From: a virus
Virus record (IMG/VR): IMGVR_UViG_3300047560_003143
Location: 1 to 36,302 of that record
Length of the DNA: 36,302 bases
Reading direction: 5' to 3' (one strand)
Part shown: positions 11,078 to 36,302 of the stretch, in pieces
How the letters are laid out: each line of letters opens with the position of its first letter
Numbering within the stretch: position 1 is the stretch's first letter
Made by a program: the position numbers and the translations under genes
Notes under the pieces: generated by a model
What the model saw: the letters and a program-made list of their open reading frames with translations, nothing else
What the model was told of the DNA's origin: nothing
Databases searched by the model: none

Positions 11078-11081
11078 CGGC

Positions 11082-12332: not shown

Positions 12333-12349
12333 GGCGCCTTGGAAAAAGA

Positions 12350-12381
12350 AAAACCCGCGCAAGCAGTCTTGGGCGGGTTTT
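12350..12381 (-). terminator. intrinsic terminator or attenuator in the methyltransferase leader
   Basis: AAAACCCGCGCAAG and CTTGGGCGGGTTTT form a 14-bp stem with a single mismatch around a 4-base loop. On the minus strand the stem is followed by GGTTTTTCTTTTTCC, an almost uninterrupted T-rich tract. The ATG of the methyltransferase is only 17 bases further on. Because a promoter lies upstream of this hairpin, it looks like a leader attenuator rather than the end of an operon. Confidence 0.7.
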
Positions 12382-12400
12382 GGGAGTCTAGAAATGCAAA

Positions 12401-12427
12401 CGCCCACAGGGATGATCCGTGTGGGCG
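12401..12427 (+). terminator. second hairpin in the methyltransferase leader
   Basis: CGCCCACA and TGTGGGCG pair perfectly around an 11-base loop. On the plus strand the stem runs into CTTTTTTAG, a typical terminator tail, although no plus-strand gene is present immediately upstream. On the minus strand it lies between the putative promoter and the T-run hairpin, so it may be a structural element of the leader. Confidence 0.5.
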
Positions 12428-12447
12428 CTTTTTTAGCGATTAGAGAA

Positions 12448-12476
12448 ACTGTACATCATCGATATATATCGGTCAA
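12448..12476 (-). promoter_or_regulatory. sigma-70 type promoter for the methyltransferase gene, with a palindrome in the spacer
   Basis: On the minus strand TTGACC (12476-12471) and TACAGT (12453-12448) are separated by exactly 17 bases, matching the -35/-10 consensus at 5 of 6 and 4 of 6 positions. The spacer and the end of the -35 box form the perfect palindrome CGATATATATCG (12460-12471), a plausible repressor or methylation-sensitive site. Transcription would begin near 12440 and run through the hairpin leader. Confidence 0.6.
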
Positions 12477-12482
12477 GGTTTT

Positions 12483-13007: not shown

Positions 13008-13530
13008 GGCGTGCCTCCTGATCCAAGGCCCAGTGCAATATGGCAAGCGCATCGGCCTCGTTGTCATCAGAGGGCTCGTAGCCCTTAGCGCGCATGGCCG
13101 CAATGACGAGATCTTTGCCAGCATTGCCTTTGCCGGTCGCGTGCTTTTTGATGGTTGCGACCGGCACACCGAGGTAAGCCACGCCGTTGGCCTCGCACCA
13201 GGCAGACAACTGCCCTAAAAAAGCGCCATAGGTGTGAGCGGCTGCCGTCCCCTTATGGGCACGCACCTCCTCAAAGTAGACGCGTGCGATAGGGCCGCTC
13301 TGATCATGTAATTCAGTAAGCCACCGAGCAAAGCGCAGCATCGACATGCCGCCACCCTCAAACCGCCCGGGTTTGAATCCGTGACTGCCTGAATGAATGA
13401 GCCCGTTGGCACGCAGGGCCCATCCGGTGGTTTGCCCGAGATCGAGGGCCAAGACGACGCCTGAAGCAGGCGATGCTGATGCCGATAGCGGTTTGATGCT
13501 GTCCGTCTGCAGCGTTGTGCGTATGCCCAT
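13000..13530 (-). CDS. RuvC-like Holliday junction resolvase
   Basis: The 176-residue protein has an RNase H-fold nuclease core: VVLALDLGQTTGWAL with Asp30, VYFEEVRAHKG with Glu87/Glu88, and the C-terminal DDNEADALAI motif with Asp160. These are the acidic residues that bind the catalytic metals. Phage RuvC-like enzymes resolve branched recombination and replication intermediates before packaging. ATG 13530 is selected over 13554 because AAGGAGG lies nine bases upstream. It follows the 320-base noncoding stretch after the prim-pol gene and overlaps the DUF6456-like gene. Confidence 0.88.
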   Translation of the reverse strand: MGIRTTLQTDSIKPLSASASPASGVVLALDLGQTTGWALRANGLIHSGSHGFKPGRFEGGGMSMLRFARWLTELHDQSGPIARVYFEEVRAHKGTAAAHTYGAFLGQLSAWCEANGVAYLGVPVATIKKHATGKGNAGKDLVIAAMRAKGYEPSDDNEADALAILHWALDQEARHG

Positions 13531-13850
13531 GGGCGTGTCCTCCTTGAAGTGCACGAGGCGACTTGGAGGAGCGCCGCTACAAACCGGGTCAGGGTTTACA
13601 GGGCTCCTTCACGTCCGAAGACCATTCGGGTGCGTGTAAGACTTATTTCAATACTTCATTCTTTCAACCTAGATCCCATGGTGGTGGGTCTATAGATATT
13701 TCAATATTTCATTCTTTCAATATAGATACCTTTTTCTTTTTCTCTCTTTAGGTGTGTCTAGGGACCCACTTTAAAAATGTATATATAGGATGTGGCTTTG
13801 AAATTTGAAGAAATTGAAGTAACTCGCCGCCACACCTGTAACCCATTGAT
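13531..13850. other. 320-base noncoding stretch with AT-rich repeats
   Basis: This gap between the prim-pol/helicase and resolvase genes holds no convincing gene. It is markedly T-rich on the plus strand (A-rich on the minus strand) and contains the direct repeat at 13644-13727. There is also a CTTTTTCTTTTTCTCTCTTTAG tract near 13729-13750 and an ATGTATATATAGGATG region near 13777-13792. An origin of replication, an operator or a transcript-processing region are all possible. Confidence 0.6.
13644..13727. repeat. two 31-base direct repeats, possible iterons or operator
   Basis: The 31-base units at 13644-13674 and 13697-13727 start TATTTCAATA and match at 28 of 31 positions, with starts 53 bases apart. 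Each contains the shorter internal echo TTTCA-ATT/TTCAA. The AT-rich repeated layout next to a primase-helicase gene is compatible with replication iterons. Confidence 0.6.
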
Positions 13851-16142
13851 CTACAAGACTTTGAGCCATTGAGTGGGCCGACCCTTGGCTTGAAGTAATA
13901 GCGACTCCACCAGCCTTGCCTCAGCCAACGTGCGCAGTACCCCGTCACGCTGACGATGGTCCATGAACTGCGTGCGCCTGGTGAACTCGCTTTTTGACAT
14001 CCCAGCTTGGCCGGCGTCGCGCAAAATCTGTAGTGCGCGCTTATGGTTTGACTCCACCAGGTTCTCAGACACCCTTGCTGAAGCCTCCCGAATCGTGAGC
14101 TCGGCACAATGCCTCGAGAGCATGATGCCCCAATGCGCATCGTGATCTTCAATCTGGGGGTCAATCGGGTCACGCGACACCGCCCGGATCAACGCTAGCT
14201 TGGTGGCGTTTTCCTCAATGCGCGCCAAAATCGACGAGTAGCCCGTACCTCGGGTGGTTCGCAACCTTGCTACTAGTTCATCATCCAACTGCCGAAAAGC
14301 GGTCTTAGCGGCCGCAGTCATGGGCACAACGCGCGGGTCGACCATCACCTCGTCGATTGCACCCACATCTGTCAGGTTCCCGATTAGCTTGCCGCCACCC
14401 TCATGAATCAAGATAAGCCTGTCGATCAAGTCTTGCGGCGGGTCGATCACACCAAACTGCTCGTTGCTGTCGGGAAAGTCCTCTTCGCTCTCCATGATTA
14501 GAAAGCGGGCGAGCGACCCGTCGGCTACGTTGGATGCTTGTAAAGCCTGCCAAAAGTGCAGTGGCGTTGTCGTGCCGTAAATGCAAGCACACGGCTGGTG
14601 AATTGCTCGGTGGGAGTTGTTGTGCTGATTGCTTGCGTACTCAATTCCAAAATACGTGGTGCCCGCCGTGGTGTAGAGCTCGGTCATTAGGTCCAAGATC
14701 TCGCAGACGTATCTGGGTGATCGCTTGCGGTCTGCGGCTGCTGACAAAAACATGCCGAACTCATCAAGCTGAAAGAGAATGGCCGGCTGGCGCTGGATTG
14801 CGTTCAATAGCCCAGAGCCTGAGGCGATCTTGTTGCCGCCGAGGTACTGCAAAAGCCCAGCCTTACGAAAGAGCTCATTGACTACGACTCGGCTGTGGTT
14901 CTTTCCAGCCCCACTCTCTGCGATGCCGACCACATAAAGATTGGAACGCGTATTGCTCTCCGTGCGGTACTTGCGACCCATCAATGCGCCGATGGCACAC
15001 AAACTTGCACCAAGTGCTAAGACTGGCTGCGGCCGCTTGGCAGTCGCTGCCATAAAGGCCATGAGATCAGCAATAATTCCGCCCACGTTATCCCAACCCA
15101 CTGGCATCGGTTTGGGTGGTGGAGGCAATGCCTGCTGCTCTTCGATGGCAATGGGGTCTACCGCCTGCAACGACTGCAAGAACTCTTTGGCCGGGTGATG
15201 ACCGTTGACCACAATCTCCCCGTTCAAACGAATATCCGCCGCAGGCTCCCAGCCGTTATCAAGGGCAAGCTTATAGATCGTCCCAGCGCCAATCCGATCC
15301 GGTGCAAAGCTTCGCCATGTCTTTGCCGTGAACTTTGGGTCATTCTTTTCAGACGACGCTGACCACGCATCAAAAAGCGGCCAGCCTTCATCGCCCAGCG
15401 CCCCTTTGATCGCAAGACCGATACGAACCCAGCTGTCGTAATCAAGATCGGCGTTACGAATGTGCTGTAGGGCATCTTCGACCGCCTCAAACGTTCCCCG
15501 CTGCTCTGGCAGCGTCACATGTTCTTTGACTGCGGTATGACCGGCCACCAGTGTTTGGGGCCTTTGTGCCGGTGGGATCAGTTCATAAGCTTGCTTGGCA
15601 AACTCACGAGCCTGCGCCTCGGTGATGGCGGGTAATTCGTCCGGCGTGAGATCCGCCAGCGTCGTGACGGGCCACTCATAGGGCTTACCGGTGTCTGGGT
15701 GAACGCCATAGGCGATGAACTGCTGCCCGACGCCGAGAACCTCAATCGGTGGGTATTTGAATCCGGAAAATGGCTGAGCCGCACGGTAAACCAAGAGCCG
15801 TTTCGGAGCATGCCCGATGCGTACTGCTGGGGTATCTCCCAAAAGCCGCTTGGCCAAGCCTTCAATCTTTTCAGCGATCTCTTTCGAAAAGAGCACATCA
15901 ATATCAATGCCGATGACACGGCCTGCCGCAATACCGATTCCTGCCTGCGGCCAGTTGCCCCAAATGTCGACTTCGTTGTCAGTGGTGTCGCGCTCGCAGT
16001 GCCGGCTCCACTTGGGATACTCATGCCACTTGCCCTTGCGATAAACGCCCGGCTTTTTGGTATTGGGTTGAATGGGCAGGATCGGAAAACCACGATCGAC
16101 CAGCGTGGCCCCTAGCTGAGCCATGTAATTGTTGTTTGTCAT
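13851..16142 (-). CDS. bifunctional DNA primase/polymerase-helicase (prim-pol, PriCT-2, DUF3987-like)
   Basis: This 763-residue replication protein begins with an archaeo-eukaryotic primase domain (about 1-200). IPIQPNTKKPGVYRKGKW and GIGIAAGRVIGIDIDV carry the metal-binding D80-x-D82, and RLLVYRA and FIAYGVHPDTGKPYEW are also typical. A PriCT_2 domain follows at about 215-300 (ALQHIRNADLDYDSWVRIGL, LFDAWSASSEKND). The C-terminal half is a DUF3987-type helicase with Walker A IAESGAGKNH (about 407-416). An AAGGAG site precedes ATG 16142. It is the main replicase of the prophage and is probably paired with the DEAH helicase two genes upstream. Confidence 0.9.
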   Translation of the reverse strand: MTNNNYMAQLGATLVDRGFPILPIQPNTKKPGVYRKGKWHEYPKWSRHCERDTTDNEVDIWGNWPQAGIGIAAGRVIGIDIDVLFSKEIAEKIEGLAKRLLGDTPAVRIGHAPKRLLVYRAAQPFSGFKYPPIEVLGVGQQFIAYGVHPDTGKPYEWPVTTLADLTPDELPAITEAQAREFAKQAYELIPPAQRPQTLVAGHTAVKEHVTLPEQRGTFEAVEDALQHIRNADLDYDSWVRIGLAIKGALGDEGWPLFDAWSASSEKNDPKFTAKTWRSFAPDRIGAGTIYKLALDNGWEPAADIRLNGEIVVNGHHPAKEFLQSLQAVDPIAIEEQQALPPPPKPMPVGWDNVGGIIADLMAFMAATAKRPQPVLALGASLCAIGALMGRKYRTESNTRSNLYVVGIAESGAGKNHSRVVVNELFRKAGLLQYLGGNKIASGSGLLNAIQRQPAILFQLDEFGMFLSAAADRKRSPRYVCEILDLMTELYTTAGTTYFGIEYASNQHNNSHRAIHQPCACIYGTTTPLHFWQALQASNVADGSLARFLIMESEEDFPDSNEQFGVIDPPQDLIDRLILIHEGGGKLIGNLTDVGAIDEVMVDPRVVPMTAAAKTAFRQLDDELVARLRTTRGTGYSSILARIEENATKLALIRAVSRDPIDPQIEDHDAHWGIMLSRHCAELTIREASARVSENLVESNHKRALQILRDAGQAGMSKSEFTRRTQFMDHRQRDGVLRTLAEARLVESLLLQAKGRPTQWLKVL

Positions 16143-16150
16143 GGGGCTCC

Positions 16151-16474
16151 TTAAAACGGTGGGTCATCGCCATAGGACTCACGCAAGGAGTCCTGAAACG
16201 ATGTCACGATCACATCAACCAGCGTTGCCCACTCCTGCTCAGTCCAGGTCACCAGATCCGTTTTGCCTGTGAGCTCCACGTAAATCCCACCGTCCCGACT
16301 GGCTGCTGCAAGCGCTGTCTGTTCGTGTTTGTTTGGGTTAATCATTCCTTTAAGCCTGCTTCCAATATCAAGGCAACGCATAGAGCAGTACTCCGTGCTT
16401 GGTCCTTCTTGTCTGGTTAAGGCGGGCTCATAGCCAAAGCCTCGGGGTGCCCGCCTACAAATCGCGCAAATCAC
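16151..16474 (-). CDS. DUF6511 protein (small zinc-binding)
   Basis: This product of about 107 residues has a zinc-finger-like start (ICAICRRAPRGFGYEP, then YCSMRCLDIGSR), giving two Cys pairs, and an INPNKHEQTALAAASRDGG segment. The C-terminal half (ELTGKTDLVTWTEQEWATLV, then VIVTSFQDSLRE) is the family's conserved part. The function of DUF6511 is unknown; it occurs in phage replication operons. GTG 16474 overlaps the helicase TGA (GTGA), a coupled start, and is preferred over an ATG at 16540 that would need a 70-base overlap. Confidence 0.8.
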   Translation of the reverse strand: MICAICRRAPRGFGYEPALTRQEGPSTEYCSMRCLDIGSRLKGMINPNKHEQTALAAASRDGGIYVELTGKTDLVTWTEQEWATLVDVIVTSFQDSLRESYGDDPPF

Positions 16475-23723: not shown

Positions 23724-24156
23724 CACCCTGGCCCGCGTGGCCGCCCTGAAATCTGCCCCGATGAGTGACCTGCGGCGGATGTGGGAGCAGTTGTTCCATC
23801 AACCAGCCCCGCAGTTCAACCGCCAGTTCCTTGAGAGCCGGCTTGCCTACCGTATACAAGAGCTCGCCTTGGGCGGCCTCAAACGGGAGACCATTCGACG
23901 CCTTGAGCGCCTGGGCGATGAGCTAGACGGGGGCAAAAGACATGTTCGCAAGCGCCGCCTAGACAACCGCCCGGTTGCCGGTACAAGGCTAGTCCGGGAG
24001 TGGAAAGGGGTGTCCCACGAGGTGACCGTTGCTGACGACCACTTCGTTTACCAAGGCAAGCCCTACAAGTCGCTCTCAAGTATTGCAAAAGAGATCACCG
24101 ACACAAACAGAAACGGCTGGGCGTTTTTTGGCTTGCAAAGCTCGAGGGGCGGCTAA
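23710..24156 (+). CDS. DUF2924 protein, recombinase partner
   Basis: The 148-residue protein matches DUF2924: a helical N-terminus (LRRMWEQLFHQPAPQFNRQF, then ESRLAYRIQELALGG), a basic middle, and the conserved GTRLVREWKGVSHEVTV and FVYQGKPYKSLSSIAKEITD segments. The last of these is an HTH-like fold seen next to serine recombinases, where it may act as a directionality or accessory factor. AGGAGG precedes ATG 23710. The frame's stop overlaps the recombinase start (TAATG-type junction at 24156), showing tight coupling. Confidence 0.87.
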   Translation: MTLSSTLARVAALKSAPMSDLRRMWEQLFHQPAPQFNRQFLESRLAYRIQELALGGLKRETIRRLERLGDELDGGKRHVRKRRLDNRPVAGTRLVREWKGVSHEVTVADDHFVYQGKPYKSLSSIAKEITDTNRNGWAFFGLQSSRGG

Positions 24157-25514
24157 TGGCAACACCTCAACGCAAACTCTGCTGCGCGATCTACACGCGT
24201 AAATCAACCGATGAGGGGCTCGAGCAGGACTTCAACTCGCTCGATGCTCAACGCGACGCATGCGAGAACTACATCTCCAGCCAGAAAGCCGAGGGATGGC
24301 TGCAACTCCCTGAGCGTTACGACGACGGTGGCTACTCCGGCGGCAACATGGACCGCCCCGGACTGCAGCGGCTGATCGCCGACATCAAGAAGGGGGTTGT
24401 CGACATCATCGTTGTCTACAAAATCGATCGCCTCTCAAGATCGCTTGCCGACTTCGCAAAGCTGGTGGAGATCTTTGACGAACACAAGGTTACGTTTGTC
24501 TCCGTTACGCAATCGTTTAACACCACCACATCGATGGGTCGGCTCACGCTGAACATCCTTCTCTCTTTTGCACAGTTTGAGCGCGAGCTGGCCGGTGAGC
24601 GTGTGCGCGACAAGATTGCCGCATCACGACAGCGCGGTATTTGGATGGGCGGAATGCCTCCGCTTGGCTACGACGTGTCTGAACGAAAGCTCGTCCCCAA
24701 CCCAGCGGAAAGCAAACTCGTGCAAGAGATCTTTCGCCGGTTTGCGCTGGTTGGGTCTATGGCTAACTTAGTCAAAGATCTCCGGGCCAAAGGCATCACC
24801 TCGAAGTCATGGATCACCGCAAAAGGCGTTGAGCGAAAAGGCAAACTGGTCGACAAAGGCTATATTTATAAGCTTCTGAACAACCCGGTGTACTTAGGTA
24901 TTGCCGCCTACAAGGGACAGCATTTCCCGGGCCAGCATCCGGCGATCGTCGACCAAGCGCTTTGGGACCAAGCACACACAGCGCTCTCACGTGATCGCGA
25001 AAAGAAACAGAAAAAAGCCGCACGCTCTGAGCGCGACTCGAAGGCTCCCTGCCTCTTAAAAGGGCTTCTTTACTCCGCAGAGGGGCGCTGCTTTACGCCG
25101 GGCTACACGATTAAAAAACAGAGGTACTACAGGTATTACATCAATACCGATGCGATCAAACTTGGGTCAGCTGCGTGTGAGGTACAGCGCCTCCCAGCCG
25201 GTGAAATCGAAGCAGTGGTCATCGAAAAGGTGAAAGAAATTCTGCGCCTACCTGAAATTACCGCAGCGGCCGTTGCGGAGGTGACAAGACTACGTCCAGA
25301 CATTGAGGAAGATGAGGCTATCGACGCCTTGCGATCTATCGATGCGGTATGGGACGAACTCTTTCCTGCCGAGCAGGCTCGGATTGTTAAAAGCCTGATT
25401 CATCGGATCACGGTGCGCCCGGACGGAGCATCGATTGAATGGGTCTCCGACGGGGTTGCAACGCTAATTAACCAGACCGTTCGCCCGAGAGAAAACGTGT
25501 TGGAGGCAGCATGA
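24156..25514 (+). CDS. large serine recombinase (integrase-type)
   Basis: The 452-residue enzyme has the resolvase/invertase catalytic domain (about 1-155). YTRKS contains the nucleophilic Ser17, NSLDAQRDAC and DDGGYSGGNMDRPGLQRL follow, and VVYKIDRLSRS holds the conserved arginines. ERELAGERVRDKI starts the long connecting helix. A recombinase domain and a C-terminal zinc-ribbon-like part (CLLKGLLYSAEGRC, then YYRYYINTDAI) follow. Phage-type large serine recombinases join attP and attB without host factors. The enzyme probably integrates the neighbouring prophage or accessory island, but no att core is visible. It ends with an ATGA overlap onto the next gene. Confidence 0.9.
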   Translation: MATPQRKLCCAIYTRKSTDEGLEQDFNSLDAQRDACENYISSQKAEGWLQLPERYDDGGYSGGNMDRPGLQRLIADIKKGVVDIIVVYKIDRLSRSLADFAKLVEIFDEHKVTFVSVTQSFNTTTSMGRLTLNILLSFAQFERELAGERVRDKIAASRQRGIWMGGMPPLGYDVSERKLVPNPAESKLVQEIFRRFALVGSMANLVKDLRAKGITSKSWITAKGVERKGKLVDKGYIYKLLNNPVYLGIAAYKGQHFPGQHPAIVDQALWDQAHTALSRDREKKQKKAARSERDSKAPCLLKGLLYSAEGRCFTPGYTIKKQRYYRYYINTDAIKLGSAACEVQRLPAGEIEAVVIEKVKEILRLPEITAAAVAEVTRLRPDIEEDEAIDALRSIDAVWDELFPAEQARIVKSLIHRITVRPDGASIEWVSDGVATLINQTVRPRENVLEAA

Positions 25515-25912
25515 CGCCCACGACTGAAATCGCGATGAACTTTTATCGCCGAGGCGTTAAGACGATCATTATTAAGCCGGACGGCTCTCGAGTCCTTGAG
25601 CGAAAAGAGGCTAAGGTCGATAACAGCATGGTCAAGGCTATCGCTCGGGGATTCAGGTGGCAGCGACTGATGCTTGATGGCGTTTACAACACGATCTACG
25701 ACATCGCTGAGAAAGAGAATATCAGCCCATCGTTTGTCAGCCGAATTTCCCGGCTCGCAACCCTATCGCCCCGAGTCGTTGAGGCAATCGTTGAAGGTAA
25801 GCATCCACCGCACCTGACGATGAAAGACTTATTTAAGCCTTTTCCAGCCGAGTGGGCGCTACAAGAACAGGTGTTCTTGAGCCTGACTCCTATCGAATGG
25901 ACAGACCAATAA
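25511..25912 (+). CDS. HTH-like protein, third gene of the recombinase cassette
   Basis: The 133-residue protein has a short beta region (IIIKPDGSRVLERKEAKVDN) and a helix-turn-helix like those of ParB/KorB (YDIAEKENISPSFVSRISRL). A helix LSPRVVEAIVEGKHPPHLTM and a conserved-looking PFPAEWALQE end follow. It overlaps the recombinase gene (ATGA) and is probably a DNA-binding accessory protein for recombination or control. The 3' end overlaps the convergent DUF4236 gene by 23 bases. Confidence 0.75.
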   Translation: MTPTTEIAMNFYRRGVKTIIIKPDGSRVLERKEAKVDNSMVKAIARGFRWQRLMLDGVYNTIYDIAEKENISPSFVSRISRLATLSPRVVEAIVEGKHPPHLTMKDLFKPFPAEWALQEQVFLSLTPIEWTDQ

Positions 25913-26195
25913 AAATCCCCACGGCCAGAACGACCAAGAGCAGTAACCACGACGGCGCACCCAAGCGCTGCGGTTCGGTCTGAGTCTGTTGATTGTCCGC
26001 CTCAGACTCTGGCAAATCGAGCCGTTTCCGATACGAAAGACCGGTGCCCGGAATCCCCACGTTACCGGTTAGCTTGCCGTCCCTGGCCGTCACACTTGCC
26101 CCCCGCGTGCCCACGGTCCAAGAGATACCGGTCTTGCTTACGTTTAGGCGCAAGCCTGGCAGAATCTTGATGCGTCTTTGGAAGCGAAAACTCAT
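25890..26195 (-). CDS. DUF4236 protein with C-terminal membrane helix
   Basis: The 101-residue protein begins with the DUF4236 signature: MSFRFQRRIKILPGLRLNVS, then KTGISWTVGTRGASVTARDG and GNVGIPGTGLSYRKRL. These beta strands form a small domain with glycine-rich turns. A polar linker leads to one hydrophobic segment (APSWLLLLVVLAVGIFIGLS, about residues 80-99), so it is probably a membrane-anchored protein with the DUF4236 part facing the cytoplasm. It is the last gene of a four-gene operon and starts by ATGA overlap with the 256-codon gene. The function of DUF4236 is unknown. Confidence 0.82.
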   Translation of the reverse strand: MSFRFQRRIKILPGLRLNVSKTGISWTVGTRGASVTARDGKLTGNVGIPGTGLSYRKRLDLPESEADNQQTQTEPQRLGAPSWLLLLVVLAVGIFIGLSIR

Positions 26196-26962
26196 GAGTT
26201 GAAACGCTCTAGACCCTGGTACTTGATGTGCATCTCGTGTCCCCTGTAAAGAGGCACGAAATTTCCGTTGTTGACCGCGTCAGGATCGAACGGATCATCA
26301 ACGGACGCAACAGCCACAGAAGCAAAATGTCCCGGGTGCCCCAGTTTGTTGAAGTGTGCTTGCAGCTCATCTATGTTGCCTGGGAGCCTCGCTTGTGACT
26401 CTGGGTAGCGAACAGCACGGACAACCACCCACTCGGGACCGTCATCACCAACAAACCAAAGCGATGGGCTAACCCCGGGGTTGCCGTTCCATGACATTAG
26501 CTCGCGCCCCTCTTGAGCGAGTTGGTCACGAACAACCTGCACCGCAAGGTCTTGCAACTCCCAATCGGTCATTACGATCTTTTCGTCAGATATCAGAGCC
26601 GGGGGGTTAATTGGTTGACGAGACCTGGCGTCAAGGAGGCCCCAGCCGGGCTCTTCTGGCTCCCAGTCGGCACCCACCCTACGCATTGGCATCACGCAAG
26701 CGTGTCCGGCACAGCCCTCCGCTATGGCGAGTAGTCCGCCTGGATTACCGGGAGTTTCAAGTCTGCCATCCACGTCCTCAAGCTGGATGAAAAACAACTG
26801 GTTCCCAAGCCTAAAAGACAGATGCTCGAGAAACGGTGGGTTGAGGTGGGCACGTAACCAGCTCTGCAGAGGTCCCTGCGCCTGATTCTGAATGTGAAGC
26901 CCAGCAGCGTTCCAACAGCGAGCGAAGTCGTCTGTGACTTCGGCCATGTGGATGTCATGCAT
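26192..26962 (-). CDS. hypothetical protein of the four-gene overlap operon (256 residues)
   Basis: The product is not recognised. It is a mixed alpha/beta, acidic protein (MHDIHMAEVTDDFARCWNAA, then LEHLSFRLGNQLFFIQLEDV). A glycine/proline/cysteine segment follows (NPGGLLAIAEGCAGHACVMP), then a long helix (TDWELQDLAVQVVRDQLAQE) and WNGNPGVSPSLWFVGDDGPE. There are no catalytic motifs, signal peptide or membrane segments. It overlaps both neighbours (8 and 4 bases), so it is almost surely made together with them. Operon context suggests a sensor, adaptor or immunity role; sequence alone cannot decide. Confidence 0.72.
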   Translation of the reverse strand: MHDIHMAEVTDDFARCWNAAGLHIQNQAQGPLQSWLRAHLNPPFLEHLSFRLGNQLFFIQLEDVDGRLETPGNPGGLLAIAEGCAGHACVMPMRRVGADWEPEEPGWGLLDARSRQPINPPALISDEKIVMTDWELQDLAVQVVRDQLAQEGRELMSWNGNPGVSPSLWFVGDDGPEWVVVRAVRYPESQARLPGNIDELQAHFNKLGHPGHFASVAVASVDDPFDPDAVNNGNFVPLYRGHEMHIKYQGLERFNS

Positions 26963-27548
26963 TCTTTACTCGCTTCGTCGAACGACTTTTTCTTGCCTTC
27001 GGTTTTTGCCACAGCTTGAGGATCACGTCATCTGGGATGTCACCCATGAGTGGAACGACCCAATAATCATGATCTTTACCCAACGCTTGCAGAAATGATT
27101 CTCTAGTCGGCCAGATTCCTTGCCATTGGCAGACTGGTCCACCTTGCCCATGAATTTCTACAATGCAGGCGATACAAGCCTTACTCCCATCTGTGGCACT
27201 AAGCTCATAAGTATGAACACTCGGCAGTAAATACTCATCGTCTCCGGTCAGAACTCGATCAATGTGACTTCTGCCCCATCTAATCCGATCGTCATCTGTA
27301 ACAGAGACATCTTTAGGTATGTCCATGCACGCTTTTAACTCTCCATCCTCAAATTGAAACTGGGCCAGGTGGCACAAGTTAAGCGCCATTTGGTCACCCA
27401 AATCTGAGATTAAAGCGTCCCAACCGTCGACCTCTAGCCACTCTTGTATCAGCCCCAAGCTTTGACTTGACGCTTTTTTATTTGACTGGAATGCCGCTAT
27501 TACCTCATCAACTGCAAACTGAAGGCGCGCAGGAAATTCGCTAGTCAT
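26955..27548 (-). CDS. hypothetical protein of the four-gene overlap operon (197 residues)
   Basis: The 197-residue protein (ATG 27548, chosen because it overlaps the previous stop and begins the conserved-looking sequence MTSEFPARLQFAVDEVIAAF) is not recognised. It has a helical N-terminal half (KASSQSLGLIQEWLEVDGWD), a central beta segment (YELSATDGSKACIACIVEIH), and a C-terminal HDYWVVPLMGDIPDDVILKL ending in a basic tail (PKARKSRSTKRVKNA). The basic tail suggests nucleic acid or membrane contact. It overlaps its neighbours by 8 bases on each side. Confidence 0.72.
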   Translation of the reverse strand: MTSEFPARLQFAVDEVIAAFQSNKKASSQSLGLIQEWLEVDGWDALISDLGDQMALNLCHLAQFQFEDGELKACMDIPKDVSVTDDDRIRWGRSHIDRVLTGDDEYLLPSVHTYELSATDGSKACIACIVEIHGQGGPVCQWQGIWPTRESFLQALGKDHDYWVVPLMGDIPDDVILKLWQKPKARKSRSTKRVKNA

Positions 27549-28353
27549 TTTTATCCCTCTTCCCCACCATCGATCCAAACGTCGCAATCGTGAACCACGC
27601 ACAATCAAGCATGAAAGGCTCGTTACTTGCCTCAAGCGTCAGTCTTAATTTGAAAAAGAAATTTCGAAACGGCGCCACTAAGACTGCCGATAGAGTGTCG
27701 CCACTTTCATACAGTTTTAGACGAGTACCTGCCTCCTCATGTTCACGCATAACTGTTGCGCTTGGATTCATAGACTCAAAATCAGAGATAGCTTGATGGT
27801 ATTCGGCAAGAGCACTCCCATCGGGATCGTCCAGGATCGATTTCGACATTTCCTTGTCATAGGCATAGATGGTCATCTTGGCCATAGGAGCTGAGTAGGC
27901 TACCGATAAACCCAGGCCCGGCGACATTTCTTCGTTATTAATCAACCCGTCAAAGTGAAACCAACCCAGCTGCCACGGTAAGCCTAGCTGTGCAGGGTGA
28001 CCCAACGGTACTCGTGCACCAGGGAGCGCCTCTGCCATTGGCAGGTCAACTTCGGAGAGGTCAAAGTAGAAACTCCTCTTTTCGGTGATGATCTGATCAC
28101 CTTCGGCATACTTGACCTCGCTAGTCAGTTTCTCAACTCGACCCATGGGTCCCTCAACCGGAAGTCTCTCAATTGCCCGCCAGTACCATCCATTGATTCC
28201 GTAGACACACCGAGCAACCTCAAGCTGTGTCGTCGCAGCCTCCATTGGGTTTTTTGAAGTGAGGATTATTGGATCGTCTGCGCTCTGACCGAAACCTCCC
28301 GAGATGGGGAGGTCTTTATCGAAGTCCTTCAACAGCATTTCTCTTAGCTTCAT
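27541..28353 (-). CDS. hypothetical protein, first gene of the four-gene overlap operon (270 residues)
   Basis: The 270-residue protein is not recognised. It has PIILTSKNPMEAATTQLEVA near the start, a beta-rich middle (KRSFYFDLSEVDLPMAEALP) and a C-terminal block (LSAVLVAPFRNFFFKLRLTL, then CAWFTIATFGSMVG). The last hydrophobic stretch is short and probably buried rather than a membrane span. AGGGAG lies about nine bases before ATG 28353. As the first gene it carries the operon's control region, including the palindrome at 28380-28394. Confidence 0.72.
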   Translation of the reverse strand: MKLREMLLKDFDKDLPISGGFGQSADDPIILTSKNPMEAATTQLEVARCVYGINGWYWRAIERLPVEGPMGRVEKLTSEVKYAEGDQIITEKRSFYFDLSEVDLPMAEALPGARVPLGHPAQLGLPWQLGWFHFDGLINNEEMSPGLGLSVAYSAPMAKMTIYAYDKEMSKSILDDPDGSALAEYHQAISDFESMNPSATVMREHEEAGTRLKLYESGDTLSAVLVAPFRNFFFKLRLTLEASNEPFMLDCAWFTIATFGSMVGKRDKND

Positions 28354-28379
28354 GCTTCACGCTCCCTTGGGTTTCTGTA

Positions 28380-28394
28380 AGCCTCGTCGAGGCT
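28380..28394. promoter_or_regulatory. perfect 7-bp inverted repeat just upstream of the four-gene operon
   Basis: AGCCTCG-T-CGAGGCT lies 27 bases before the ATG of the 270-residue gene. It is the size and symmetry of a repressor operator for that operon. The ten-base palindrome TCGATATCGA (28438-28447) lies further into the shared control region. Confidence 0.45.
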
Positions 28395-28472
28395 ACTGCA
28401 AGGCAAGCTCACTTGATGAGCCACACCACTGATACACTCGATATCGACAAATTTAGACATCTTTGCCCTATT

Positions 28473-28502
28473 TTCGCTTATATTTCTCATTTGTATAGCG
28501 AA
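28473..28502 (+). promoter_or_regulatory. inverted repeat in the control region of the helicase-hsdM operon
   Basis: TTCGCTTATA (28473-28482) and TATAGCGAA (28494-28502) are arms of an inverted repeat with a one-base bulge, 42 bases before the helicase start. The arms include AT-rich TATA sequences that could double as -10 boxes. A regulator, perhaps the HTH protein of the same operon, may bind here. Confidence 0.4.
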
Positions 28503-28544
28503 TAAGCAGCGGAAGCAAGAGACGAATCCGAAAAAGCGAGACCT

Positions 28545-31500
28545 ATGAGCCTAGAAGCCGAACGACTGAGCGCACTGATAGAGTTCTGCCATCAATCTGC
28601 GCGGTTGAGAGGTAAACCAACTGCTGCTGTCTCCTCTCACAGCAACTTTAGTCTGTACGAGCATGAGCTCGCCGGGTCACCAGGGATTAGGCTCAATCAC
28701 AGTGGTCTTGATGGCACTGATGAAATATGGATCTCGGTTGACCGGCTTCACGAGACCAAACCACCAGAGATCAACAGCGAATGGCTAGCGCCTTGGATCA
28801 TCCTGGCAAAAGGACCGAATGAAGGGCCCTCCCTCAGAGAGAGCATTGACGGCAGCGCTCTGCTAGAGGCAGGCACACATACAGAAGACGCAGCTGAGGA
28901 ATTGCCTCAGGCTGCCCCTAACGAAGTAATAATCTTTAATGACTACCCAGAACGTAACCGCGTGTCTGCGCTGTTTGAGGAGTATGTCAAAGCAAAATGG
29001 ACGCCATGGGCGACCGAGGAAAAAAAGCGATTAAAAACAATTCGTTTGTACGCCCAACTCTTTACGCTAAAGCAGCAGCTTGAGGGTGGAATTGTCGAGG
29101 CACAGCTGGAGTTAGTCTGGGGTATAGGAATCGGTGTATGGAAGCAGCCATCAGCGACAGTTAGTTACCCGTTAGTTAGTCAGTTAGTAGAGCTGTCATT
29201 AAACCCAATAACCGCAGCGCTTGAGATACGCCCAAGAGATGTAAACCCGCGTGTTGAACTTGATTGGTATGCGACCCAGGACAACCCTGGCGTTGCCGAC
29301 CTAGAAAAAGCAGCAAAAATCTTCTTTGATGGGCTTCCACAAACACTCTCACCGTTTGACCGCGGGACCTTCGAGCCGCTTCTAAGAAGTGCTGTTACCC
29401 ATTTAGATGCCAACGGGGTCTATTGGCCGTCACAAACTCCAGCGGAAGACAGAACCGTACCGAAGGCAGATGACAAGCTCAAAGTAACCGACACTTGGGT
29501 TTTGTTTGCAAGACCAAGAACCAACAGCACATACCTGCAAGATCTTGAACGACTTAAGGCAGCTGCGGAAGAACTAGATGAGCTTCCACCTGCGGTAGCT
29601 GCGATTGTCACCGACCCTGACAGCGAAAACCCTGAGGTTGAATTCCCCGCGTTTAGGGGAGTGTCAGCCAGTTATCACAGCGACGGCGCTGACTACGGCT
29701 CAGCCCCACCCTCGCACAAGGCAAAGGATCTCTACTTTCCAAAGCCCTTCAATGATGAGCAAGTTCGGATCATTCAGCTTTTGGAAATTTTTGACGGTGT
29801 GGTTGCACAAGGACCTCCGGGAACCGGCAAGACGCATACGATTGCCAACGTCATTTGTCATTATTTGGCGAACGGCAAGCGGGTGCTTGTGACCTCTATG
29901 AAAGATCCAGCACTTGGCGTACTTAGCGACCAGCTGCCGGACGAGATAAAACCGCTAGCCATATCGCTACTCACTAGCGAACAAGAAGGCCTGAAGAAAT
30001 TTGAACACTCGATACTAAAAATTGCTTCGGAAGTTCAGAGCATTGATCGAACAGCAACATCAAAAGAAATCCGGCATTTAGAGGAGTCTATCGATGCACT
30101 ACATGGACAGCTGGCGAGAGTCGACTGGGACATATCAATTTGGGCAAAGAAGAATCTAAACAAAATCACGATCGACGGGGTAGACATCGATCCCGCTGAC
30201 GCAGCCAAGGAACTTGTAAGCCATGCCGGGGCGTTTGAAATTATCCCGGATGCCATCAACATCACGAAAGAGCACGAACCAAAATTCAACGACCAAGATG
30301 TCATAGAGCTCCGTACCGCACGCGCAGAACTTCAAAAGGACCTTGTATATCTTGATGCCTCATTGCCACAGCTTGCAGAATTTCCCGACTCGCGGTCAAT
30401 TCTGCAAACACATCAAGACCTATCAAGATTCGAACAACTTAAACGTGATGTTGAAAGCGGCGATGTACCAAGCCTGTCAGACACCTTCCAGAAAACTATC
30501 GATTCTGCAATTGCCCTTAAAGCGGATATCGATGAACTAAAAGACATTCGAGCACGCTTAAATTCAACGGGCTTTAACTGGATTTCTTCACTAAAAAGCG
30601 GCATCACCGATCCTGCGAAGAGTGATATCAAGAGAGTTCTTGACGAACTTGGTGAGCACTTAAAAGCTGCAAAAGAGCAGCGTAAAAACTTTCTCAGTAA
30701 GCCAGTTCTGATTCCGCCTGACTTCGAGTCAAATCAAGAGCTAGTTGAGGCTGTCAACAATCTTTCTGATGGCAAGCGACCGTTTGGGCTCTCGGGTCTG
30801 ATTGGCAAAAGCAACGAGAAAAAGGCTCTAGACGCAGTACAGATTCTGGGAGCTCCCCCCAAGAGTATTGATGAATGGAAGCATGTTAAGGACTATGTCG
30901 CCTTACAAAGTCGTCTACGCGAACTTGCGGTTAGATGGAACGCTATTGCTCAAGAGATAAAGCTGCCAGTGCTGGAAGCCAAACCTCAAGGCGGTGTTGA
31001 CGCAATTGAAAACTTCGCAATCTATGAAGAAGTCACACGCGACCTGCATTTGGGTAATCAAATTCAAAAGAAATCTTGTGAATTATTTAGCTCTTGGCAC
31101 GACGCAGAGAACGTCTTACAAAAAGACTCGGCATTCGAGGAGTTAGACCGAGCACTTCGACATCACTTAACCAAGAACCGACTCGCAAATGTTTGGTCAA
31201 ATAAAGAGCAGTTTCAAAAAATATTAGACGGTCGAAGTGGTCCGATCGTTGAGTCGATCAGGCAGTTTTTGAACGAGACGCTTGGCAATCCAAACGTTAG
31301 CGACATGGAAATGCAAGCGACGTGGTCATCCCTAATGTCAGAACTATCGCGTGTACTTGGGCTGCACTCAAGGCTTCAGTCAGTCAGGCGGGTAACAGAC
31401 CTGGTTTCTGAGTCCGGCGCTCCTGGATACGCTAGCCAGTTACGCTCCGCCCCCGGTAGTTTGACTGCTGATGAGCTTTTGCCAAGTAATTGGAAGCAGA

Positions 31501-33941
31501 GCTGGAGATTAAAGCGTCTCGACACGTATTTAGGCGAGATAGATGCACAAGCCGAACTCAAGCAGCTATCAAAACGTAGGACTGGTATCGAGCAGGATCT
31601 CTCCAAGGCTTATCAAGACGTAGTAGTTAAGCGGACGTGGTTGAAGCTTGCAGAAAACGCCTCTCCGAGTATTCGTGCCGCACTACAGGCTTATCTCAGT
31701 GCAATTCAAAAAATTGGCAAGGGAACAGGCAAAAGAGCCGTGCGCTACCGCCAAGACGCTCGTAACGCTGCATCGCTGGCGAATTCCGCCGTTCCCTGCT
31801 GGATCATGCCGCACTATCGAATATCCGAATCGCTCCCCCCTGAATTGGGATGTTTCGATTTGGTGATCGTAGATGAAGCCTCGCAGTCAGATCTGACTGC
31901 TCTTCCCGCTTTGCTCCGAGCCCAGAAGGTGCTGATTGTTGGGGACGACAAACAGGTCTCGCCCGAGGGGGTCGGACTTGAGGAAGAGAAAATTCGGAAC
32001 TTGATGAGTCGCTTTCTTGGCAAACAAGTTGAGACCTATCGTCCTCAGATGTCGCCCGAGCGCTCGATCTACGATCTGTTTAAGGTTGTATACGCTAAAA
32101 GCTCTGTAATGCTCAAAGAGCATTTTCGCTGCGTTGGCCCGATTATTGAATACTCAAAACGAGAGTTCTATAACCACGAGCTACGTCCGTTGAGGCTTCC
32201 GAGAGCCTCGGAGAGGTTAGATCCGCCACTAATAGATGTGCTGGTACAAGACGGATATCGCGATGGCGATAGAAACACTGCCGAAGCTCGATTTATTGTC
32301 GAAGAGATCAAGAAGATGGTCTCTGATGACAAGTATTCGGACCGCTCTATTGGAGTAGTTTCATTACTTGCCGACAAGCAGGCCTACTTAATCTGGGAGA
32401 TGCTGACCGAGGAGCTGGGGCCGGAATACTTGCAGCGCCATAAGATTGCGTGCGGAGATGCCAGGACCTTCCAGGGAAAGGAACGCGACGTTATGTTCTT
32501 ATCCATGGTGGTCGCACCGAATGAGCAGCGAATATCAGCGCTATCAAGAGACACGTATGCCCAGCGGTTTAACGTTGCTGCGTCTCGCGCTCGAGATCGG
32601 ATGTATTTAGTTCGGTCTGTAGCCCTTGAGCACTTGAGCGAGGCGGACAAGTTACGGCGAAGCCTAATTACCCACTTCGCAACGCCTTTCGCACAAGATG
32701 AGACAAGACAAGATGACCTACGGCGTCTTTGTGAGTCGCCATTTGAACGAGAGGTTTATGACGCTCTAACCGAGCGAGGGTTTTGGGTAACACCACAGGT
32801 CAAAGTGGGTCAATTCCGAATCGACATGGTCGTAGAGGGGAATAATGACTCACGGCTCGCGATCGAATGCGATGGTGACAAATATCACGGGCCCGATAAG
32901 TGGGCTGATGACATGCATCGTCAGCGGATCCTGGAGAGAGCCGGCTGGATATTTTGGCGATGCTTTGCCTCAACGTGGGTTCGCCGTAAAGGCGAGATGA
33001 TTGAAGATCTTGTCCGCAGTCTGGCCGAACACGGGATAGAGCCCGTTGGCTCTGACCACGCCCCGAAAAGCATCCACACGGAACAACGAATAGTCTCTGC
33101 CTCTGATATAGATAGGATTGAGCTGCCAGAGACAGAGCAATCACAACAGCAAATCGCTGGAGAAGATCAAGATTCAGTAGTAGCAGCAAGGCCAGACGAC
33201 GAAGCAATCAAAACTCAGCCGGTCCAACCCGAAGAACTTCCCGAGACGGATACGAAGGAGAGCTCTAACGTTGCTCCCCCTACCGAAGAGTTTGCCATTC
33301 CGACATTCCTGCCTACGCCACCGGTACCAGATAGACCTCAAAGTAGTAGGTTGACCACTTCTACTGTCACCCGTAGAGCAGGTTTACAAGTGACTAAGTA
33401 CTCTGAATTCACTGAACCTTTGAGCGGCGACCCACGCGAGGTCAATGTTGAATGGATATCAAGAGGTTTAGTAAAGATTATTCAAGCGGAGGGTCCGGTC
33501 ATTGCAAAACGCGCGTGCGATATCTACCTTAGGTCAGTGGGCATCAAGCGAATGGGGCATGAAATCAAGGCGACCATGCAGCAGGCCCTGCAGACAGCGA
33601 TGAGAGCCGGTCAAATCGAATCATTCAACGAGACGGGCGATAACGACTTATTGAGCCACACCATGCGAACCACAGGGACTCCGCCTTTAGTTATCAGGAC
33701 TCGTGGCGACCGTTTATTTGAAGAAATTACGCCCAGTGAGATTCAGTTCGTTGCAAAGTATTTGAGCGAGACTCGTGGACTATCGGTTGGAAGCGATGAA
33801 CATCTACGCGCTGTACTCGAATTTTTCGACCTAAAGCGCCTAACAACTCAGGTGGGGTCGGGAATTCTAGATATTTTGCAAAAGAAACTTCCCCACGTTG
33901 ATGCACTTCTGGAGCAGCTCTCACCTGGAGGGCAATTATGA
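28545..33941 (+). CDS. giant SF1 helicase with Vsr-like nuclease domain (defence-type)
   Basis: The 1798-residue protein has an N-terminal part (about 1-400) of unknown fold, then an SF1 helicase with Walker A GPPGTGKT at 423-430. DEAS is at 1110-1113, GDDKQ at 1133-1137, and the terminal helicase motif VAASRARDR at about 1344-1352. A long helical insertion (about 480-1050) with coiled-coil patterns splits the helicase core. A Vsr/DUF559-like nuclease follows, with Asp1427, then IECDGDKYH (Glu1441, Asp1443 and His1448) as candidate catalytic residues. After a proline/glutamate-rich linker, the C-terminus (about 1630-1790) resembles a DUF3320-like domain. Known single-protein defence genes (Hhe, recalled as DUF4011-helicase-Vsr) have a similar order, but here the N-terminus differs and an HTH and two hsdM genes follow by ATGA overlaps. 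Confidence 0.85.
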   Translation: MSLEAERLSALIEFCHQSARLRGKPTAAVSSHSNFSLYEHELAGSPGIRLNHSGLDGTDEIWISVDRLHETKPPEINSEWLAPWIILAKGPNEGPSLRESIDGSALLEAGTHTEDAAEELPQAAPNEVIIFNDYPERNRVSALFEEYVKAKWTPWATEEKKRLKTIRLYAQLFTLKQQLEGGIVEAQLELVWGIGIGVWKQPSATVSYPLVSQLVELSLNPITAALEIRPRDVNPRVELDWYATQDNPGVADLEKAAKIFFDGLPQTLSPFDRGTFEPLLRSAVTHLDANGVYWPSQTPAEDRTVPKADDKLKVTDTWVLFARPRTNSTYLQDLERLKAAAEELDELPPAVAAIVTDPDSENPEVEFPAFRGVSASYHSDGADYGSAPPSHKAKDLYFPKPFNDEQVRIIQLLEIFDGVVAQGPPGTGKTHTIANVICHYLANGKRVLVTSMKDPALGVLSDQLPDEIKPLAISLLTSEQEGLKKFEHSILKIASEVQSIDRTATSKEIRHLEESIDALHGQLARVDWDISIWAKKNLNKITIDGVDIDPADAAKELVSHAGAFEIIPDAINITKEHEPKFNDQDVIELRTARAELQKDLVYLDASLPQLAEFPDSRSILQTHQDLSRFEQLKRDVESGDVPSLSDTFQKTIDSAIALKADIDELKDIRARLNSTGFNWISSLKSGITDPAKSDIKRVLDELGEHLKAAKEQRKNFLSKPVLIPPDFESNQELVEAVNNLSDGKRPFGLSGLIGKSNEKKALDAVQILGAPPKSIDEWKHVKDYVALQSRLRELAVRWNAIAQEIKLPVLEAKPQGGVDAIENFAIYEEVTRDLHLGNQIQKKSCELFSSWHDAENVLQKDSAFEELDRALRHHLTKNRLANVWSNKEQFQKILDGRSGPIVESIRQFLNETLGNPNVSDMEMQATWSSLMSELSRVLGLHSRLQSVRRVTDLVSESGAPGYASQLRSAPGSLTADELLPSNWKQSWRLKRLDTYLGEIDAQAELKQLSKRRTGIEQDLSKAYQDVVVKRTWLKLAENASPSIRAALQAYLSAIQKIGKGTGKRAVRYRQDARNAASLANSAVPCWIMPHYRISESLPPELGCFDLVIVDEASQSDLTALPALLRAQKVLIVGDDKQVSPEGVGLEEEKIRNLMSRFLGKQVETYRPQMSPERSIYDLFKVVYAKSSVMLKEHFRCVGPIIEYSKREFYNHELRPLRLPRASERLDPPLIDVLVQDGYRDGDRNTAEARFIVEEIKKMVSDDKYSDRSIGVVSLLADKQAYLIWEMLTEELGPEYLQRHKIACGDARTFQGKERDVMFLSMVVAPNEQRISALSRDTYAQRFNVAASRARDRMYLVRSVALEHLSEADKLRRSLITHFATPFAQDETRQDDLRRLCESPFEREVYDALTERGFWVTPQVKVGQFRIDMVVEGNNDSRLAIECDGDKYHGPDKWADDMHRQRILERAGWIFWRCFASTWVRRKGEMIEDLVRSLAEHGIEPVGSDHAPKSIHTEQRIVSASDIDRIELPETEQSQQQIAGEDQDSVVAARPDDEAIKTQPVQPEELPETDTKESSNVAPPTEEFAIPTFLPTPPVPDRPQSSRLTTSTVTRRAGLQVTKYSEFTEPLSGDPREVNVEWISRGLVKIIQAEGPVIAKRACDIYLRSVGIKRMGHEIKATMQQALQTAMRAGQIESFNETGDNDLLSHTMRTTGTPPLVIRTRGDRLFEEITPSEIQFVAKYLSETRGLSVGSDEHLRAVLEFFDLKRLTTQVGSGILDILQKKLPHVDALLEQLSPGGQL

Positions 33942-34147
33942 ATACCACCAATAAAGCATTAACCGTTAAGGACGTCGCTAGTTATTTAAACGTAGATGAA
34001 AAAACCATTTATCGGCTTGTGAGCAAGGGCTCAATTCCGGGCTTCAAAGTATCTGGTTCCTGGAGATTCCAGCTGCAGGACATCCAGGGGTGGATTGATC
34101 GACAAAAAGCTGGAGCGCAGTCCGCTGCAAGAAAAAGAGAGAAATGA
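33938..34147 (+). CDS. excisionase-family (HTH_17) DNA-binding protein
   Basis: This 69-residue protein is one MerR/excisionase-type helix-turn-helix (LTVKDVASYLNVDEKTIYRL) with the wing VSKGSIPGFKVSGSWRF and a basic tail (RQKAGAQSAARKREK). Such proteins bind short sites and regulate or direct recombination. It overlaps the helicase stop (ATGA) and the next hsdM start (ATGA), so it is translated as part of one unit. It probably regulates the operon, possibly at the inverted repeats upstream of the helicase gene. Confidence 0.88.
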   Translation: MNTTNKALTVKDVASYLNVDEKTIYRLVSKGSIPGFKVSGSWRFQLQDIQGWIDRQKAGAQSAARKREK

Positions 34148-35646
34148 ATCAAGAAATCAAAACCGTAGAGCTATCACGGCTTGAAAATCATCTTTGGGAG
34201 TCCGCAAACATCCTGCGCGGCCCTGTGGATGCAGCGGACTTTAAAACTTACATTTTCCCGCTGCTGTTTTTTAAACGTATCTGCGACGTCTGGGACGAGG
34301 AGTACCAGGAAATCGTCGACGAGACAGGAGACGAGCAGCTCGCCTACTTTCCTGAGTCGCACCGTTTTCAAATTCCTGAAGACTGCCACTGGAACGACGT
34401 ACGTTCCAAGGCTAGTAATGTCGGTTCGGCGCTTCAGCATGCGATGCGCGGGATTGAAAAGGCCAATCCCGACACGCTATACGGAGTCTTTGGTGATGCG
34501 CAATGGACGAACAAGGAGCGCCTCTCTGACTCACTGCTCAAGGACTTGATCGAGCATTTTTCCGCGCTCCCGCTGGGCAATCAAAACGTCGCGTCCGACT
34601 TGGTGGGTGATGCCTACGAATACCTGATCAAGAAGTTCGCCGACGCCACCAACAAGAAGGCCGGCGAGTTCTACACCCCCCGTAGTGTCGTGCGGCTGAT
34701 GATCGACATGCTTGACCCTAAGGAGGCGGAGACTATTTATGACCCTGCCTGTGGTACCGGCGGCATGTTGCTGGCAGCTGTGCAGCACGTGAAAGAGATG
34801 CACGGCGACGTCAAGCGGCTTTGGGGCAAGCTCTTCGGGCAGGAGAAGAATCTCACCACCTCGTCCATCGCCCGAATGAACTTATTTCTGCACGGTATTG
34901 AGGACTTCCAGGTGGTGCGAGGTGACACACTGCGAAACCCTGCCTTCTTCGAGGGTGACCGGCTCGCCACCTTCGATTGCGTGATCGCTAACCCACCGTT
35001 CTCGTTGGAAAAGTGGGGCGAGGATTTGTGGCTAAACGATCCCTTCGGCCGCAACTTCGCTGGTCTACCGCCATCAAGCAGCGGTGACTTCGCCTGGGTT
35101 CAACACATGGTTAAGTCGATGGCCGATGGCACTGGTCGAATGGCCGTGGTGCTACCCCAGGGCGCTTTGTTCCGCAGAGGGGCTGAAGGCGAAATTCGCC
35201 AGAGGCTGTTGGAGATGGATCTGATTGAAGCAGTGATCGGTCTGGCGCCGAACCTGTTTTACGGTACCCCCCTAGCCGCTTGCGTCTTGTTGTTGCGCAA
35301 GCGCAAACCTGTCCAGCACAAAAAGAAGGTGCTGATCGCCGACGCATCGCGTAGATTCCGCCGGGGTCGGGCACAAAATTTTTTGGAGCCTGAGCATGCA
35401 GCTGAAATCTTTGGCTGGTATCGCAGCTTTGCCGATGTGCAAGACGCGGTTCGCGTGGTCACGCTCGATGAGATCAAAGCCGAGGACTGGACGCTAAACA
35501 TCTCGCGCTACGTGCTACCCCCGCTGCAAGAAGATATTCCACCGCTGCCCGAAGCAATTGCTGCGTTTAAGGATGCGCTGACTCGGTGCCGCGAAGCGGA
35601 GGAGCGGCTAGCTCAGGTCATCACTGAAGGAGGATGGCTGCAATGA
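34144..35646 (+). CDS. hsdM: type I restriction-modification methyltransferase subunit M (first copy)
   Basis: The complete 500-residue HsdM has the N-terminal HsdM_N helical domain (HLWESANILRGPVDAADFKT, then FPLLFFKRICDVWDEEYQ). The catalytic domain has the AdoMet motif YDPACGTGGML (DPACGTGG at 200-207) and the catalytic NPPF at 283-286. The C-terminal part (LNISRYVLPPLQEDIPPLPE) leads to a short helix that contacts the specificity subunit. Type I M subunits modify adenine in the target chosen by HsdS. The start overlaps the HTH gene (ATGA); the end overlaps the second hsdM (ATGA). Confidence 0.93.
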   Translation: MNQEIKTVELSRLENHLWESANILRGPVDAADFKTYIFPLLFFKRICDVWDEEYQEIVDETGDEQLAYFPESHRFQIPEDCHWNDVRSKASNVGSALQHAMRGIEKANPDTLYGVFGDAQWTNKERLSDSLLKDLIEHFSALPLGNQNVASDLVGDAYEYLIKKFADATNKKAGEFYTPRSVVRLMIDMLDPKEAETIYDPACGTGGMLLAAVQHVKEMHGDVKRLWGKLFGQEKNLTTSSIARMNLFLHGIEDFQVVRGDTLRNPAFFEGDRLATFDCVIANPPFSLEKWGEDLWLNDPFGRNFAGLPPSSSGDFAWVQHMVKSMADGTGRMAVVLPQGALFRRGAEGEIRQRLLEMDLIEAVIGLAPNLFYGTPLAACVLLLRKRKPVQHKKKVLIADASRRFRRGRAQNFLEPEHAAEIFGWYRSFADVQDAVRVVTLDEIKAEDWTLNISRYVLPPLQEDIPPLPEAIAAFKDALTRCREAEERLAQVITEGGWLQ

Positions 35647-36302
35647 GCCGCATCACCCAACAAGAGCTCGAAAGCTACCTCTGGGGCGCAGCCGTTTTAC
35701 TGCGCGGTCTGATTGATGCCGGCGACTACAAACAGTTCATCTTTCCGCTGCTGTTCTACAAACGTGTGTCCGATGTGTGGGGCGAGGAGTACCAGGCAGC
35801 ACTGGCCGATTCAAACGGTGATCTGTCTTACGCGCAGTTCGCAGAGAACCATCGGTTTCAAATTCCAGAGGGCGCGCACTGGAACGATGTGCGGCAGACG
35901 CCCAAGAACTTAGGCGCTGCTATCCAGCGCGCCATGCGCTCCATTGAGTCGGCCAACCCCGACATGCTGGACGGCATCTTCGGCGATGCCCCCTGGACCA
36001 ACCGCGAGCGTCTGCCAGATGAAACGCTGAAGAACCTGATCGAGCACTTTTCGACTCGGACACTGTCGGTGGCCAACGTACCCGAGGACGAGCTGGGCAA
36101 CGCCTACGAGTACCTGATCAAAAAGTTCGCGGACGACTCCGGCCATACGGCGGCCGAGTTCTACACCAACCGAACCGTCGTCCATCTGATGACGCAGCTT
36201 CTTGCGCCGCAGGGTGGCGAGTCGATCTACGACCCCACGTGCGGCACCGGCGGCATGCTGATTTCAGCGCTGGACGAAGTGAAGCGGTCGGGCGGCGAGT
36301 AC
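35643..36302 (+). CDS. hsdM: second type I methyltransferase subunit M, cut by the window edge
   Basis: A 220-residue N-terminal part begins MSRITQQELESYLWGAAVLL and overlaps the first hsdM stop (ATGA). HsdM_N features are present (YKQFIFPLLFYKRVSDVWGE, then FQIPEGAHWNDVRQTPKNLG), as is the AdoMet motif YDPTCGTGGML (DPTCGTGG at 197-204). It aligns along its whole length with the first HsdM but is clearly diverged (for example GLIDAGDYKQFIFPLL against GPVDAADFKTYIFPLL), so it is a paralogue, not a frameshifted fragment. The catalytic NPPF motif and any hsdS/hsdR genes lie beyond the window. Confidence 0.9.
   Translation, partial: MSRITQQELESYLWGAAVLLRGLIDAGDYKQFIFPLLFYKRVSDVWGEEYQAALADSNGDLSYAQFAENHRFQIPEGAHWNDVRQTPKNLGAAIQRAMRSIESANPDMLDGIFGDAPWTNRERLPDETLKNLIEHFSTRTLSVANVPEDELGNAYEYLIKKFADDSGHTAAEFYTNRTVVHLMTQLLAPQGGESIYDPTCGTGGMLISALDEVKRSGGEY

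Follow-up and report, generated by a model that had tools for sequence, protein, structure and literature searches.

A helicase-nuclease gene coupled to the 5' part of a PacII-type type I restriction operon: a candidate accessory defense module

The window, the whole stretch of DNA analyzed here, is a 36302-base virus record. Near its right end it holds a gene for a helicase-nuclease, a gene for a small HTH protein, and two hsdM genes in an unbroken chain. This arrangement raises the question of whether the helicase-nuclease belongs to a type I restriction machine, possibly in place of the HsdR subunit, or is a separate defense protein made together with such a machine. The record ends inside hsdM2, and the downstream S and R genes would lie outside the record. 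The features on which the analysis rests are as follows.

28354 to 28544, plus strand: gap of 191 bp between the divergent gene and the helicase gene, likely place of the operon promoter and operator
28545 to 33941, plus strand: SF1 helicase (AAA_11/AAA_12) with a Vsr/I-Bth0305I-like nuclease, 1798 residues, of a family near ProA/PDC-S37/Hhe
29811 to 29834, plus strand: Walker A motif of the helicase gene, GPPGTGKT (residues 423 to 430)
31863 to 31886, plus strand: Walker B motif of the helicase gene, VIVDEASQ (residues 1107 to 1114)
32742 to 33023, plus strand: REase_MTES_1575 nuclease domain (residues 1400 to 1493), with D1427 and E1441-C-D1443
33315 to 33938, plus strand: C-terminal tail of the helicase (residues 1591 to 1798), winged-helix-like, weak DUF3320 match
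33938 to 33941, plus strand: ATGA overlap of the helicase and HTH genes, preceded by GGAGG
33938 to 34147, plus strand: HTH_17 (excisionase-type) protein, 69 residues, MAD1-like
34144 to 34147, plus strand: ATGA overlap of the HTH and hsdM1 genes
34144 to 35646, plus strand: hsdM1, 500 residues, PacII-type M1 subunit with AGEF and NPPF, predicted m6A
34179 to 34192, no strand: module boundary, where 11 close dual-M relatives begin to resemble the window in nucleotide sequence
35643 to 35646, plus strand: ATGA overlap of hsdM1 and hsdM2, preceded by AGGAGG
35643 to 36302, plus strand: hsdM2, M2 subunit with AAEF, predicted m4C, truncated where the record ends

The first 25.9 kb or so of the record are prophage-like (terminase, portal, primase, and large serine integrase), and the defense genes are located past this part. 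The integrase and a second recombinase-related open reading frame (ORF) occupy the end of the prophage genes (24156 to 25912). Four minus-strand ORFs (25890 to 28353) separate the integrase from the helicase operon; the two that were checked had no Pfam match, and a 101-residue ORF of this group resembles DUF4236 by eye only. No DNA match was found in E. coli genomes.

The sequence-only reading of this DNA held that translation of the four genes is coupled, which the three 4-nt ATGA overlaps confirm. The third of these was obtained by moving the start of hsdM2 from the mechanical ORF start at 35634 to the ATG at 35643, which was preferred because its ribosome-binding site is better spaced and because it agrees with the relatives (MSRITQQ...); the overlap is then of the same kind as the other two. 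Three consecutive ATGA overlaps and the conserved M1/M2 order are above chance. A consensus scan of the plus strand from 28300 to 36302 gave no promoter, which is weak evidence since other promoter types fall outside such a scan, and terminator-like sites occurred in chance number only. Neither a consensus promoter nor a clear repeat was seen in the 191-bp gap in front of the helicase gene. The outcome of the scan is compatible with the production of one transcript.

The presence of two M genes had been taken as abnormal for a type I system. Both products contain the HsdM_N and N6_Mtase domains of Pfam, and their best matches among solved structures are two different chains of the PacII methylase, namely, 7vru_A for M1 (597 bits) and 7vru_B for M2 (291 bits), the chains being assigned to M1 and M2 from the match pattern. 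In the class of systems to which this enzyme belongs, an M1 subunit with AGEF and NPPF motifs makes m6A and an M2 subunit with AAEF and NPPY motifs makes m4C (PMC9613975). The M1 subunit of the window carries AGEF and NPPF, and its M2 subunit carries AAEF, in the segment GHTAAEFYTNRT. The NPPY motif of M2 is expected beyond the end of the record; it is present in the 40 M2 relatives of a tree of 81 sequences, in which the window M2 groups with all 40 NPPY subunits (100/100) and the window M1 groups with the NPPF subunits. By these matches and motifs, hsdM1 and hsdM2 are identified as the genes for the M1 and M2 subunits of the known non-canonical PacII-type m6A/m4C type I systems, and the view of the two M genes as an aberrant system was discarded on the same grounds. 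The window resembles the PacII M1M2S complex (PDB 7vru; PMC9613975) in having two different M subunits, the M1-M2 gene order, an AGEF/NPPF M1, and an AAEF M2, and differs from it in the helicase-nuclease and HTH genes coupled in front.

The m6A/m4C type I class is common: M1-M2 pairs were found in 11 of the 398 genomes of one phylum sample, and further pairs in three more genome samples and on two plasmids. The first description of this class is reportedly that of Morgan and colleagues in 2016. Besides the window, 36 M1-M2 pairs were read, and the gene order was M1-M2 in all 36. An hsdR gene was located downstream in 26 of them; eight pairs were cut off, leaving 28 that could be resolved, and in the remaining two (L137 and L158) hsdR was not found within 7 kb, so that an R-less dual-M case may exist. 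None of the 36 pairs has a helicase of the family found in the window, and the window is the sole place found for such a helicase before HTH-M1-M2. The check proposed by the sequence-only reading, co-occurrence of this helicase family with HTH-hsdM-hsdM, gave the arrangement in the window only among the loci covered. One genome (G636 C1) contains two near-identical dual-M islands (L149 and L150), at about 1196000 and 1264000, a distance of about 67 kb.

Extra genes in front of or inside dual-M operons are common and include gajAB, ietAS, GmrSD, AbiE, WYL, RHH, and HTH genes. GmrSD is located between M1 and M2 in L139 and, by position and size, in L160. The interval between M2 and S is occupied by gajA-gajB in L151 (by HMM) and L153 (by position and size), and by ietAS in L138 (IetS by HMM) and in L140, L141, and L194 (by position and size). 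AbiEii is present in the dual-M operon of L159. Including L145 and L197, guest defense genes, DUF4062 proteins among them, were noted in these loci at several junctions, some by HMM and some by position and size only.

The Pfam matches of the helicase are SF1-type AAA_11/AAA_12 and the REase_MTES_1575 nuclease (110 bits, residues 1400 to 1493), and the SF2 motor of type I HsdR (ResIII/HsdR) is absent from the significant matches. The helicase motifs and the nuclease residues D1427 and E1441-C-D1443 are all present in the window protein, and Walker A, Walker B, and the nuclease residues do not vary across six aligned homologues. In an AlphaFold2 model of residues 1380 to 1798, most of the nuclease has a pLDDT of about 70 to 90 and the linker that follows is below 50. 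The modeled domain superposes on I-Bth0305I (3r3p_A; Z 12.9) and on Vsr (1cw0_A; Z 11.1), over about 95 to 100 residues in each case; Foldseek alone gave a best E value of 0.0098. The model thus bears out the earlier description of the nuclease as Vsr-like, and a Vsr-like fold is predicted for this domain.

The tail (residues 1591 to 1798) is also winged-helix-like in the AlphaFold2 model, which is a common arrangement. The winged-helix matches (Z about 8) occur too widely to assign the tail to a family. Within the close clade of the helicase, only the window copy has this tail, which could mean adaptation to a new partner; similar tails occur in distant helicase relatives from actinobacterial and Deinococcus loci.

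The helicase scored 252.7 bits against ProA (NCBIfam NF058533), 154.6 bits against Hhe (NCBIfam NF042953), and 263 bits against PDC-S37 of PADLOC. Since the curated NCBIfam cutoffs are 1500 bits for ProA and 2000 bits for Hhe, the protein is best classified, by sequence, as a relative of both and a member of neither; DUF4011 was not among its Pfam matches. The papers found on ProA/Prometheus do not state what the ProA system is. The window helicase is similar to Hhe, ProA, and PDC-S37 in its SF1 core and in its aligned C-terminal nuclease region, and differs from them in that its gene stands first in a type I operon.

The relatives of the helicase were found in other surroundings. In the order that includes genome G106, the helicase is present in 33 of 399 genomes, and at the 25 same-order loci covered (L191 and L192 were left out) no hsdM, hsdS, or hsdR gene was located beside it; one of these helicases is near a type ISP enzyme, and another (L187) is beside an MmeI-type enzyme. 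On plasmids, a relative comes after brxL of a BREX-1 system (Acinetobacter), after a methylase and a BPTD_3080-family endonuclease that form a type III-like pair (Sphingobium), or is coupled to a small gene that is RHH-like by eye and has no Pfam match (Variovorax). At L187 (G568, 7471 to 16348, minus strand), an MmeI-type (type IIL) restriction-modification enzyme, a HEPN_LA2681 protein, and the helicase are encoded consecutively. In the viral_contigs set, a scan with the helicase as single protein query found no relative, unlike an alignment query, which did. On two viral contigs (L090, 9276 to 14425, and L092, 7735 to 12941), a MAD1-like HTH gene is ATGA-coupled to a distant helicase relative, and the pair is divergent from a methylase-like gene of about 800 residues, identified by Pfam in L090 as a D12 adenine methylase. 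The genome that carries the most similar M2 belongs to a family of which 43 genomes were searched, without a positive control, and the helicase was not found in them. Nearness to methylation systems is reported here as observed cases, with no background rate set against them.

Because its relatives occur without hsdM or beside quite different systems, the helicase appears to work as a unit of its own that is sometimes near methylation-based defense. Such occurrence alone or in disparate company largely corresponds to the random contexts that the sequence-only reading had itself named as telling against its proposal. That proposal, in which the helicase-nuclease serves as a functional component of the type I machine and attacks DNA left unmarked by M1M2S, replacing HsdR or acting beside it, is favored by the strict translational coupling, by a tail domain that the close relatives lack, and by the nearness of the family to BREX-1, a type III-like pair, type ISP, MmeI type IIL, and a D12 methylase. 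We nevertheless regard it as quite unlikely: an ordinary HsdR is kept in 26 of the 28 resolvable dual-M operons and this helicase is in none of the 36, the 25 same-order helicases have no hsdM beside them, the adjoining methylation systems often have an effector of their own, and the helicase contains no HsdR-type domain. Since 26 of the 36 other pairs have their own hsdR (two with none within 7 kb, eight cut off), the helicase most likely does not replace HsdR, as far as gene content can tell; it may supplement the restriction system. In a bolder version, the helicase family reads host methylation, and the window copy, fitted to the m6A/m4C methylase by its extra C-terminal domain, attacks DNA that lacks the marks or is protected from HsdR, one pair of marks thereby licensing two different destruction machines; we consider this a long shot.

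Comparison of nucleotide sequences located the joint between the two parts of the operon. In 11 of 12 close relatives, the alignment with the window begins 35 to 48 nt inside hsdM1 (the twelfth has a broken M1), and between 33301 and 34178 nothing aligns with the close dual-M relatives. The helicase is absent from the loci of these relatives. Because the similarity starts inside hsdM1 and the close relatives are without the helicase, the helicase and HTH genes appear to form a front cassette that was joined to a shared M1-M2 core. The sharp boundary, the different front neighbors of the close relatives, and the finding of the exact arrangement only once would also be expected if recombination in a defense island had joined the genes by chance, the helicase and HTH genes before hsdM1 then sharing translation and nothing else. 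The HTH gene overlaps each of its neighbors by exactly 4 nt, and each of the two couplings recurs apart from the other, HTH-M1 in L146, L161, and L194 and HTH-helicase in L090 and L092, which makes a chance joining unlikely in our judgment.

Since both couplings recur, the HTH appears to be a functioning joint between the two parts. In L146, L161, and L194, a MAD1-like HTH gene overlaps M1 by ATGA in loci that lack the window's helicase, and other genes overlap M1 in the same manner (RHH-like in L137, WYL in L153). The role of controller that the earlier reading gave to the HTH is thereby made plausible, and from the gene arrangement we propose that it plausibly regulates the operon. L146 (G376, 4326 to 15309, minus strand) comprises an MkoC-like SF1 helicase, a MAD1-like HTH that is 54% identical to that of the window, and M1-M2-S-R; its helicase is different from the window's and is located 5' of the HTH gene across a gap of about 260 bp, with no overlap. 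The MADS system (Mad1 HTH and Mad2 methylase) also has an excisionase-type HTH before an N6-methylase, and the window HTH and M1 match MAD1 (70.6 bits) and, weakly, MAD2 (88.1 bits). Both scores are below the curated cutoffs (80 and 720, respectively), M1 and M2 are PacII-type, and other MADS genes were not seen in the window, which ends in hsdM2. Assignment of the locus to MADS was rejected on the scores and the subunit type, and it is scarcely credible that the locus is MADS, or akin to it, with the helicase as an additional component.

We therefore favor, as the probable explanation, that the window holds the 5' end of a PacII-type type I operon with a co-translated accessory helicase-nuclease and an HTH as a jointly regulated second layer. 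The operon would read M1-M2-[S-R], with S and R beyond the record and the two extra genes in front. M1 and M2 are predicted to form one M1M2S methylase that modifies one strand with m6A and the other with m4C, and an ordinary HsdR, expected just past the end of the record, would cut unmarked DNA. The helicase-nuclease would be an accessory defense protein, presumably directed against phages, of a kind that elsewhere appears to work without HsdM. As the product of the first gene, it would be produced alongside the type I system, under joint control by the HTH, and it would probably provide a second layer against phage DNA that evades the type I enzyme or blocks it.

Independent defense genes embedded in type I operons are known from tgvAB of V. 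cholerae (PMC11411939) and from RptR-RMS-DarTG2, in which DarTG2 is located in a type I operon with the repressor RptR (PMC12255303). Both are similar to the window in having an independent defense module within a type I operon, and the latter also in its small transcriptional regulator. In these two systems, the guests are located between hsd genes, whereas the guest of the window is the first gene and the regulator is located between it and hsdM1.

The apparently odd double-hsdM operon is thus explained by a known enzyme class. The m6A/m4C type I operons emerge as a chassis that takes in complete defense modules (Gabija, IetAS, GmrSD, AbiE, and SF1 helicases) at several junctions, and the small regulators in front of hsdM1 as interchangeable. 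If the helicase were truly dependent on methylation marks, it would represent a new kind of effector for type I restriction.
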